A program made the position numbers and the translations under genes. From positions 1-62,351 of the forward strand of contig CABMIB010000001.1 of NCBI GenBank assembly GCA_902386135.1: a DNA stretch of 62,351 nucleotides, read 5' to 3'. Positions within the stretch are counted from its first letter, which is position 1; each line of letters opens with the position of its first letter. Of the stretch, positions 59,254 through 62,197 are shown in pieces. The notes under the pieces were generated by a model. The model was not told where the DNA came from and searched no databases. It saw only the letters and a program-made list of their open reading frames with translations. The DNA is from an uncultured archaeon. GTDB lineage: Archaea > Halobacteriota > Methanosarcinia > Methanosarcinales > Methanoperedenaceae.

Positions 59254-59676
59254 CTAAACTTCCTCTTCAGGGATGATCGTTGTCAGCTTCACATGTTTTA
59301 CCCCGCGGAGCGTCATTATCTTCTCAGTAAGGCTTTTGACATCCCTGCCTTCTCCTCTTACAAGCAGTACTTCCATGCATATATCATGGCTTATGTGAAC
59401 ATGAAGGGAAGAGCGTATTATTAAAGAGAACTCATGTTCTATGTCAAGCAGCGAATTGACCAGCCCTCTCTGGTTATGATCATAAACCATAGAGATAGTA
59501 CCTACCCTTTCGCCCTCGACTTCGCTCATCCAGGCATAATAACGGATATAGCTCCTTATCGCATCCCTGATCCCTTCGGAGCGCGAGGAATAACCTCTTT
59601 TTGTGATTATTTCATCGAATTCCTCAAGCAGGTTCTCCGGGAGAGAAACACCGATCCTGGCAAGCTCCTTTTCCAT
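59254..59676 (-). CDS. nikR: NikR nickel-responsive regulator
   Basis: A 140-residue RHH-ACT protein. RHH spans 1-45 ([38 protein letters not shown]). The nickel site is complete: His81, His92, His94 and Cys100, in EHEF and [10 protein letters not shown]. NikR represses nickel uptake at high nickel; methanogens need nickel for factor F430 and for hydrogenase. No nickel transporter is adjacent. Its stop lies five bases past the convergent uppS stop. Confidence 0.94.
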
Positions 59677-59817: not shown

Positions 59818-60211
59818 ATGGGAGAGTACGAAGATACATTAGAGGACATAGAGAGCACTCTGGGAATAGTGCCGGGGTTCATGAAAGCCATTCCGGCATG
59901 TACTTGTAAAGGATTGGGCTCTCTGGAAGAAATATTCACTCGGTAAATCCGAGATTCCAGCCAAGTACAGGGAACTGATGGGATTATCAGCAGCAGCTAA
60001 CATCAAATGTCCGTACTGTCAGTTAATGCATACAGGGATAGCTAAATTTCATGGCGCTACGGATGAGGAAATATCCGAAGTTGCCTATCTGGCAAGCCTC
60101 ACAGCAAGATGGAGCGCAATGATACATGCGCAAAACTACGATTATGAAATATTCAAAAAAGAGGTAGGACAGGTAGGAGAGCATCTGCAAAAGGAAAGGT
60201 CGCGCAGATAG
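59818..60211 (+). pseudogene. Carboxymuconolactone decarboxylase/AhpD-like gene with one frameshift
   Basis: GGAGG precedes ATG 59818. The frame reads GEYEDTLEDIESTLGIVPGF MKAIPA (given in two parts) and then goes out of frame: codons after about 59900 read CTCKGLGSL and TAA. From 59903 another frame continues LVKDWALWKKYSLGKSEIPA, KYRELMGLSAAANIKCPYCQ (CxxC redox pair), LMHTGIAKFHGATDEEISEV and ends KERSRR at TAG. Together this is a typical 130-residue AhpD-like protein. The shift equals loss of two or gain of one base. TATA-like TTTTTATATAC lies at 59740-59750. Confidence 0.8.
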
Positions 60212-60383: not shown

Positions 60384-60447
60384 GTCAATAGTTGACATCT
60401 TTTATAAATGTTATTAGTTATCAGACTTGATTACCGAAATTTATATG
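60384..60447 (+). promoter_or_regulatory. Promoter of the candidate structured RNA
   Basis: TATA-like CGAAATTTATATG lies at 60435-60447, about 25 bases before the expected 5' end near 60470. A palindrome GTCAA-TAG-TTGAC (60384-60396) and a second TATA-like TTTTATAAATG (60399-60409) lie upstream and may be an operator and an alternative promoter. Confidence 0.45.
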
Positions 60448-60469
60448 TCCCATTAACGCTATGTATTAA

Positions 60470-60620
60470 TTGGAGAGCAAATCGGGTGATTAATAACTAT
60501 ATTTATGGAAACCCCATAGGTTTGGATTGATATAGAGATCCCAAACACGGGTAAAACCGTGTGCGGTAACTATGGAATGAGAGTTCCCGCCCGAGCTCGA
60601 ATCCATTTTTCGCTTTTTTT
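60470..60620 (+). ncRNA. Candidate structured non-coding RNA of about 150 nt
   Basis: No coding frame is evident. A closing stem GAGC (60475-60478)/GCTC (60595-60598) plus CGGG (60483-60486)/CCCG (60590-60593) encloses hairpins TATGG/CCATA (60504-60518, loop AAACC), GTTTGG/CCAAAC (60520-60546), ACGG/CCGT (60547-60560, loop GTAAAA) and AACT/AGTT (60568-60585). An alternative pairs CCATAG 60514-60519 with CTATGG 60570-60575. The transcript ends in TTTTT, then CGC and a seven-T run (60614-60620), a good archaeal terminator. A TATA box lies upstream. I do not recognise the family; it is not tRNA, 5S, SRP or RNase P RNA. Pairing was done by eye. Confidence 0.5.
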
Positions 60621-60681: not shown

Positions 60682-61161
60682 TTAACTTAAATGGATTTTT
60701 AAATTAGAAAGAATTTTTTCATTGAATTTTTGTGCTTCTTTCGTTCCTTCTTCTGGTGCCCATTCAGCGAAAATTTTATCAGTTTCCATTATATATGGAC
60801 CTTCTTTTATTTCATATAACACAGAACCTTCTTTTAAGACTATGAACGAATGCCATGTTTTAGGTGAAATCTCTACTCCATTATTTCCTTTCTCTGAGTC
60901 TAAAATGATATGATCGGTTATTTTCCCATCATCATCAAATTCAATAACTAAAACTCTCCCTTTTAAAATTAGAAAAATTTCTATTTTGTCAGGGTTCTCA
61001 TGCTTATGTGAACGAACATACGTATCAGGCTCTGCGACATTAAGAAAACGTTGTATACAATCGCTATTGCTATTATGGAAATTGTAATTACACCTTTTCC
61101 TAACGGACGTCTTTGCTTTACTTGAAAGCGTGTTCATAAGTTTATCAGTTATCTTGATCAT
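60682..61161 (-). CDS. WbuC-like cupin-fold protein
   Basis: The 159-residue protein has RKRCNYNFHNSNSDCIQRFL, AEPDTYVRSHKHENPDKIEI (His ligands HKH, Glu in EIFL), LKGRVLVIEFDDDGKITDH and a C-terminal cupin motif TWHSFIVLKEGSVLYEIKEG. It matches the WbuC family of cupins that occurs in bacterial O-antigen loci, function unknown. Here it stands alone beside the candidate RNA, read convergently. It may be involved in surface sugar metabolism. Confidence 0.82.
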   Translation of the reverse strand: MIKITDKLMNTLSSKAKTSVRKRCNYNFHNSNSDCIQRFLNVAEPDTYVRSHKHENPDKIEIFLILKGRVLVIEFDDDGKITDHIILDSEKGNNGVEISPKTWHSFIVLKEGSVLYEIKEGPYIMETDKIFAEWAPEEGTKEAQKFNEKILSNLKIHLS

Positions 61162-61264: not shown

Positions 61265-61486
61265 TCCATTTTGAGGACAGCTTCTGATGTTGGTTTTTAC
61301 CCAAACACGCTCGAATACGCCCTGATATTCTTTTAGTAATCTATCTTCTTTTGTTACATATATATTTTTACAAAATATTGCAGAAATCATTATATTCTAC
61401 TGGAGAATTTTGTTTAAACTCCATGCATTAGCTATAACATAGAAGCTAACATGTATCATCTTAAGCCTCCTGCGAATAGAAAAACG
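61265..61486 (-). mobile_element. Remnant of an insertion sequence (transposase C terminus)
   Basis: A minus-strand frame (61397-61486) ends RFSIRRRLKMIHVSFYVIAN then AWSLNKILQ and TAG, resembling the C-terminal helix of IS4/ISH-type transposases. About 110-130 bases beyond it lies TTTGAGGACAGCTTCTGATG (61270-61289), which has the look of a terminal inverted repeat. The upstream part of the transposase is replaced by the GC-rich stretch. This is a weak call. Confidence 0.4.
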
Positions 61487-61625
61487 TGACGCTGCGCAGT
61501 TCGCAGGGTCGCCCGACCTCTCCACGCTTCGGGGCGCGCCGTCCCCGCAGGGATTCGGCTTTGTCGAACCTTCGGCGGCGCGGCTGGAAGTGGGGGCGCA
61601 ACTATCTCGGCACTTACAAAATTCC
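61487..61625. other. GC-rich island without a gene
   Basis: About 140 bases of strongly GC-rich sequence (such as GGGTCGCCCGACC and GGGGCGCGCCGTCCCCG) interrupt AT-rich flanks. It contains several short inverted repeats, and TTCGGCTTTGTCGAACCTTCGG. I see no gene. It may be an imported fragment, a recombination scar or a folded RNA element. Confidence 0.45.
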
Positions 61626-61691: not shown

Positions 61692-61922
61692 ATGCCAACG
61701 ACAATTACAATAAATGAGAAAACAAAAGAAAGGTTATCGGATTATAAGTTCGGTGATTTGACTTTTGATGATGTTCTAAATATGCTTATGGACAAGATAT
61801 CAATCGAGGATATAAGCGCGGAACATATCAAAGAACATTATCGCCGCTTTGCTAATTTTAAAGGGATTTCAAAAGAAGAGTTTAAATCCCGAATGAAGAA
61901 AAAAGCTTCAAGTGGATGCTGA
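61692..61922 (+). CDS. Antitoxin-like protein of a RelBE-type pair
   Basis: ATG 61692 gives 76 residues: TTITINEKTKERLSDYKFGD, LTFDDVLNMLMDKISIEDIS, then HIKEHYRRFANFKGISKEEF. The N-terminal beta strand and helices fit an RHH-type antitoxin in archaea; the C-terminal helix would wrap the toxin. It overlaps the toxin gene by seven bases, and a 22-bp palindrome abuts its start. Confidence 0.75.
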   Translation: MPTTITINEKTKERLSDYKFGDLTFDDVLNMLMDKISIEDISAEHIKEHYRRFANFKGISKEEFKSRMKKKASSGC

Positions 61923-62197
61923 TATGGTTGGGCAAAGAAATAATTCCATATGAAGTTCTCATCGATGAAAGAGTTGAAAAGGATTTAGAAAAAGTCCCAA
62001 ACCACGTTGTTAATAAATTTCTAAAATTACTTGATGAATTCGAGAAGAATCCTATTCGACCAAGACCGGGTTTTGATGTAAAGCCCATGGAAGGATATCC
62101 TGGTAATACATATCGATTAAGGATTAGAGCCTATCCGAAAAGCCCTGCTGCTCTGAAAGTTATCCATGCACATGCGAAATGTAGCATTGCAATATAA
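61916..62197 (+). pseudogene. RelE/ParE-type toxin truncated by an IS5 element
   Basis: From ATG 61916 the frame reads YEVLIDERVEKDLEKVPNHV, VNKFLKLLDEFEKNPIRPRP and NTYRLRI, a RelE-type toxin to about residue 70. After 62127 the codons (RAYPKSPAALKVIHAHAKCS) are the reverse strand of the IS5 transposase end. The last beta strand and catalytic residues of the toxin are lost, so it is probably inactive. The intact antitoxin gene upstream would now be an orphan. Confidence 0.8.

Follow-up and report, generated by a model that had tools for sequence, protein, structure and literature searches.

A structured RNA between converging genes

The locus raises the question of whether an intergenic stretch of a Methanoperedens genome encodes an RNA of its own and, if so, what kind of RNA this might be. 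The window, by which we mean the whole 62,351-nt stretch of DNA that was analysed, is contig C1 of a 3.24 Mb genome. The initial annotation had placed its candidate in a 470-nt gap between converging genes, and the gap has exactly this length, separating open reading frames at 59978-60211 (+ strand) and 60682-61161 (- strand). The left frame is a fragment of a frameshifted carboxymuconolactone decarboxylase gene, the right one is a convergent gene for a cupin-like protein of 159 aa, and the diverging neighbour of the locus is nikR, which encodes the nickel-responsive regulator (59254-59676, - strand; Pfam NikR_C 1.6e-30, RHH_1). Covariance model R1 matches positions 60468-60612 on the + strand with 141 bits (E 1.9e-30 in the window's genome), a high score that is expected because the R1 alignment includes this sequence. 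The RNA has a minimum free energy (MFE) of -47.3 kcal/mol (RNAfold z = -4.6, with none of 200 shuffled sequences as stable), and a slightly longer stretch around it gives z = -4.0.

A four-way junction held by compensatory changes

Members of the family are about 140 nt long and adopt a cloverleaf in which the helices P1, P2, P3 and P4 meet at a four-way junction; in the window all of them lie on the + strand. The closing helix P1, whose pairs were counted in the homologue alignments, consists of 60471-60474/60602-60605, 60475-60478/60595-60598 and 60482-60486/60590-60594, and contains an AAA bulge (60479-60481) and a GAA bulge (60599-60601), the second of which reads GAA or GUA across the family. 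This is the two-part closing stem originally described from the window (60471-60478/60595-60605 plus 60482-60486/60590-60594); homologues seldom break its pairs, the outermost excepted, and position 60482/60594 shows a U-A/C-G double change. The P2 arm (60489-60531) is variable in sequence but conserved as a helix, with AUCAU/AUGAU swapped for AUUG/CAAU and other combinations across copies. In the window copy the distal P2 pairs of the model are mostly non-standard, and the MFE structure pairs the distal arm otherwise. The long P3 arm, which shows covariation, comprises AUAG/CUAU (60532-60535/60570-60573), CC/GG (60541-60542/60565-60566) and CACGG/CCGUG (60546-60550/60557-60561). Its tip in the family is CACAG/CUGUG with a GGUAAAAC loop; the loop is GUAAAA in the window copy, and GUAGAA is kept in a distant homologue (G046, described below). 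P4 is a short GGA...UCC hairpin (60574-60587) that was recognized in the homologue alignments. Both the A-rich internal loops and the P3 tip are nearly invariant across copies, and inspection of P1 and P3 by eye revealed no K-turn/L7Ae motif.

Two finer points of the annotation held only in part. Its internal hairpins agree with the stability of the fold, whereas the consensus contains just three arms beyond P1 (P2, P3 and P4), so that the family fold does not have the four hairpins described. The alternative CCATAG/CTATGG pairing, suggested to act as a switch, is present in the window copy, but its full 6-bp version occurs in only 8 of 34 copies, and we therefore rejected it as a feature of the family.

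The structure is supported by compensatory changes. In an alignment of all copies fitted to the model, 23 pairs show compensatory changes, as compared to 9.4±1.7 in shuffled alignments, and 92.9% of paired cells can pair, as compared to at most 46% when the partners are slid. Ten sequences (the stand-alone copies and the leader-type copy L072), also in a model-fitted alignment, gave 13 pairs versus 5.8±1.6. Two of the three alignments were thus fitted to the model, and the third, produced with MAFFT, agrees with them: it has double changes at 15 pairs (7.2 in shuffled alignments), and pairing is possible in 93.6% of cells, a value that falls to 46% or less when the partners are slid. Taken by itself, the derived clade (see below) shows weak covariation (4 pairs versus 4.3 shuffled), although its pairing cells and score exceed those of all shuffles. 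The helices pair in 94% of cells when read on the + strand and in 86% on the - strand; the + strand is favoured because of G-U pairs. Helices held by compensatory changes in homologues are the general mark of a structured non-coding RNA, and they are found here, which makes it close to certain that this is a real structured RNA family. The annotation had made its core claim depend in part on the stems being conserved in relatives; they are, with compensatory changes, and in this respect the claim survives.

Promoter and oligo-T signals

An archaeal promoter element, TACCGAAATTTATATG, with a BRE and the TATA-like box noted earlier, is located at 60432-60447 (+ strand), ~24-25 nt before P1, and is strongly conserved: when the upstream regions of 35 copies were aligned, ACCAAAATTTATAAATGCYATTAATG or a close variant was present in all but a few. 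In four genomes that were scanned, exact matches to TGATWACCRAAATTTATA occur only at copies of the RNA. Upstream of the BRE and overlapping it is an imperfect palindrome, TTATCAGACTTGATTACC (60418-60435, + strand), that could be an operator; a similar ATCAGnnCTGATnACC is present at a subset of copies, and the palindrome ATCAGnnCTGAT precedes the promoter at a subset. The pattern has 46+50 near-matches in the window's genome versus 13+7 for a reversed control. The best of the other matches are mostly not followed by a promoter, and a shared operator regulon was rejected because near-matches beyond the RNA copies are mostly not promoters. An operator-like TTATCGCACCTGATAACAAAAAATA, possibly a remnant, lies upstream of nikR at L160, in a genome that lacks the RNA.

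Directly after P1 is an oligo-T terminator, TTTTTCGCTTTTTTT (60606-60620, + strand), which corresponds to the double T-run of the annotation; a scan for bacterial-type terminators did not score it. In archaea, the U-tract of terminators is reported to correlate with termination efficiency (PMC8716108). The 30 nt after P1 contain 16.1 T in 10 stand-alone copies (G030 and G046 being counted among these) versus 11.5 in 21 leader-type copies (Mann-Whitney p = 0.0004), a difference that is only indicative because the copies are related and were classified by their neighbouring genes. Judged by sequence, the locus has what is expected of a stand-alone archaeal small RNA gene, namely its own BRE/TATA element at the right distance and an oligo-U 3' end. 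A free RNA is very probably transcribed from it, with its 5' end likely at ~60468-60472.

Distribution among genomes

A DNA search produced matches in 20 of 60 relatives, and a covariance model built from 25 sequences produced 37 matches in 22 of 34 Methanoperedenaceae genomes. We consider 35 copies convincing (E 2.5e-16 or better); they are found in 21 of the 34 genomes, with one to three in each. M. nitroreducens Mnv1 and BLZ2 are both carriers of the RNA. The two weaker matches are a copy with a truncated 3' half (G013:C214) and a 32-bit hit in G019 that was discarded, as it lies inside a coding sequence and looks like chance. Several Methanoperedenaceae genomes that are at least 95% complete have no copy, and this patchy presence implies that the RNA is dispensable in the genus.

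Searches of the order (186 genomes) and class (238 genomes) returned only two matches outside the family, G167 and G046. The first is assigned to a different family of the order but most likely represents a mis-binned contig of Methanoperedens: it is 3.7 kb long and carries an RNA of the leader clade together with thermosome and PhaE-like remnants. The second belongs to a family of the order other than Methanoperedenaceae and is a divergent homologue that has the same P1 sequence, folds alone into the same four-way cloverleaf (z = -4.7) and is followed by a long T-run. G046 was also found with a P1-only pattern, for which there were no control matches in the 186 genomes; a relaxed version gave one control match in the 238. 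The divergent homologue (L079, 6432-6587) has differing arms and is located upstream of hdrC/hdrB/hdrA-like genes. The covariance model found nothing new in a phylum sample of 393 genomes, where, as in all searches of more than 40 genomes, stricter filters applied and weak homologues could be missed. An exact pattern run over GTDB species genomes matched Methanoperedenaceae or archaeal relatives and three bacterial stretches; the latter are ascribed to chance, as the covariance model finds nothing in them. Pattern scans of IMG/VR for viral carriage gave no matches.

Stand-alone and leader-type copies

A midpoint-rooted FastTree phylogeny separates copies at the nikR locus, copies at the purE/uspA locus and a large leader-type group; one copy upstream of uspA (G011:C65) is placed close to the purE/uspA copies in this tree. 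The RNA stands alone at both the nikR locus and the purE/uspA locus, as the next genes are convergent or distant and oligo-T occurs just after P1. In G030 the next gene is proS, which is in line with the RNA and lies beyond a strong T-run. Two genera, one of them the sister genus to which G033 belongs, have the nikR-locus copy at this one locus. Although nikR is matched in 32 of the 34 family genomes, the RNA adjoins it in only 5 of these. In G012 and G016, nikR and proS are adjacent and the RNA is absent; when these sites were compared by eye to that of G030, they suggested that the RNA had been cleanly gained or lost.

Approximately 21 copies, more than half, immediately precede a protein gene on the same strand. 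The earlier statement that the RNA is not a 5' leader is therefore correct at the window locus but does not extend to the family. The genes that follow include thermosome genes (some of them remnants), UspA, CxxC zinc-finger, DUF5670, KH and other genes; the zinc-finger gene is followed by a protein-L-isoaspartate methyltransferase gene, and in three genomes the gene directly after the RNA encodes a 63-aa protein. Our impression from the gene identities, with copies across genomes not being independent, is of a stress theme. General control of thermosome genes by the RNA was rejected, as each genome has 5-7 such genes and the majority lack it. At L233-L262, many thermosome genes are preceded by another common motif, CTTATATAGAACCxCAAACATTG, which looks like a dedicated promoter.

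Many leader-type copies share a tail of ~70 nt after the RNA, beyond which the genes vary. Translated, this tail corresponds to the C-terminal part of the TRAM RNA-chaperone domain (E 1.7e-10 with NCBIfam PyTRAM, which is short of the full-length cut-off of that family, and E 0.019 with Pfam TRAM), and the derived clade therefore probably descends from one copy that landed in or next to a TRAM gene. Degraded TRAM coding remnants lie within ~70 nt after the RNA in L083, L082, L085, L087, L088 and others, and in L064 the remnant appears to read in frame into a fragment of a PDZ-domain (HtrA-like) protein. In G022:C15 (L268 ~1500, - strand) the promoter has been kept and the RNA is gone, with a CxxC zinc-finger gene directly downstream; a promoter that outlives its RNA is an argument for regarding promoter, RNA and gene as parts of one unit in the derived clade. 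Given their position upstream of genes and their weaker T-run, the RNAs of these copies probably make up the 5' portion of the respective mRNAs. Leader-type copies thus look like a derived state, and we think it likely that they are mRNA leaders.

Relation to known RNAs

The annotation had stated that the RNA resembles none that is known and had recommended a check against Rfam. With Rfam 15 at gathering thresholds there was no match at the RNA, the only hit being a tRNA elsewhere in the window, and five homologue loci, including G046, likewise had none. A permissive search (E up to 10) returned a single partial match, which scored 12.5 bits (cut-off 60) and lies beyond the RNA on the opposite strand. 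With the compensatory changes and the conserved promoter, this supports the proposal that the stretch encodes a new structured non-coding RNA and has a promoter and a terminator of its own. The NiCo riboswitch also forms a four-way junction and is associated with nickel/cobalt genes, and the window copy is next to nikR. However, this riboswitch gave no Rfam match even at E up to 10 and only the five copies noted above adjoin nikR; identity with the NiCo riboswitch was rejected for lack of a match to its Rfam model. Nor is the RNA consistently placed in 5' leaders, as a riboswitch would be, since at least eight copies are stand-alone at the nikR and purE/uspA loci.

Our search of the open-access literature found no description of small or non-coding RNA in Methanoperedens. 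Methanosarcina mazei sRNA162 (PMC3510493) and Haloferax sRNA132 (PMC6560208) are stand-alone archaeal small RNAs that are described as acting on mRNA targets. Compared by description, the candidate resembles them in being intergenic with archaeal promoter features, and differs in having a conserved, covarying four-way junction and no recognizable target. It also resembles the orphan RNAs and riboswitch candidates of comparative genomics (e.g. PMC2864571), which have a covarying fold, invariant loops and a partial association with genes of a common theme. Unlike these, several Methanoperedens copies stand alone with strong T-runs, the downstream genes form no metabolic pathway and no expression platform is conserved.

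A proposed mechanism and its alternatives

We propose, with a probability of roughly 55%, that the window copy is a free-standing gene whose product, a small structured RNA, acts in trans through a partner, and that derived copies became leaders. TBP and TFB would bind the BRE/TATA element, transcription would begin at ~60468-60472 and end in the oligo-U run after P1, and the transcript would fold into the four-way junction whose helices, as comparison shows, are kept by compensatory changes. As the A-rich loops are nearly invariant and no single-stranded seed is obvious, we favour a partner-binding RNA over an antisense RNA; the folded molecule may thus act on a protein or small ligand through its invariant loops and not by simple antisense pairing. 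We put such binding in trans at slightly short of even odds. The argument from the loops is indirect, and the patchy presence of the RNA, the two nikR-proS sites that lack it and the weak covariation inside the derived clade weigh against the proposal. In the derived clade, the promoter-RNA unit would have ended up ahead of other genes, among them several stress genes, and our best guess is that the trans-acting small RNA came first and the leader was captured later. A broader idea, possible but doubtful, is that anaerobic methanotrophs have a class of regulatory RNA with two lives, a free partner-binding cloverleaf and a leader cassette placed repeatedly ahead of chaperonin, UspA and zinc-finger genes, joined in one stress-responsive control. 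Methanoperedens is a key anaerobic oxidizer of methane, and the family gives a concrete handle on its RNA regulation; as a lineage-specific RNA that is apparently both free gene and leader, it is also a test case for the conversion of stand-alone RNA genes into mRNA leaders.

The main rival is a cis-regulatory origin, which we regard as unlikely: the cloverleaf would be a riboswitch- or attenuator-like element that senses stress and controls read-through at the T-run after P1, or a 5' stabilizer that protects the mRNA, and stand-alone copies such as that of the window would be orphans of lost genes. The ~21 in-line copies ahead of thermosome, UspA, CxxC zinc-finger and other genes fit this reading, as do the position of the T-run immediately after P1, its weakening in leader-type copies, and the pairwise identity in 14 of these copies, which is 83% in the RNA and 72% in the adjacent tail. 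However, entire tree groups, at nikR and at purE/uspA, stand alone beside convergent or distant genes, the downstream genes are diverse and suggest no common metabolite, no alternative structure is conserved, and at the thermosome copies the Shine-Dalgarno region lies at least ~60 nt outside the RNA. Antisense or convergent-transcript control of the opposing gene, which at the window locus encodes the cupin-like protein of 159 aa and at the purE locus is uspA, is suggested by several stand-alone copies that face a gene ending within ~70 nt. It is very improbable, as different loci have different opposing genes, most loci show no overlap between this gene and the structured RNA, the conserved structure is independent of it and leader-type copies face no such gene.

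Dispersed, non-orthologous copies, their patchy distribution, the empty nikR-proS site in G012 and G016 as compared to G030 and the downstream flank common to the derived clade could also reflect a small mobile or repetitive element (a MITE-like cassette), with the RNA as its conserved core and a structure that serves its own spread. We consider this quite improbable. Visual comparison of one empty site revealed neither terminal repeats nor a target-site duplication. The flank common to the derived clade is what remains of a TRAM gene and is more in keeping with one founder event plus ordinary duplication, the copy next to nikR is found at that locus in two genera, and a passive repeat would need neither a conserved promoter nor a conserved terminator.

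Other features near the locus

The carboxymuconolactone decarboxylase gene between nikR and the RNA (59818-60211) is split by its frameshift into two reading frames, and it is missing from the nikR-RNA gap of G008. A GC-rich segment of the window at 61461-61600 could be a dispersed repeat, as its start, AAGCCTCCTGCRAATAGAAAAACG, recurs near the RNA copy at L096. At 61694-62197, two small adjacent genes look like an antitoxin-toxin pair of the RelB/RelE type.
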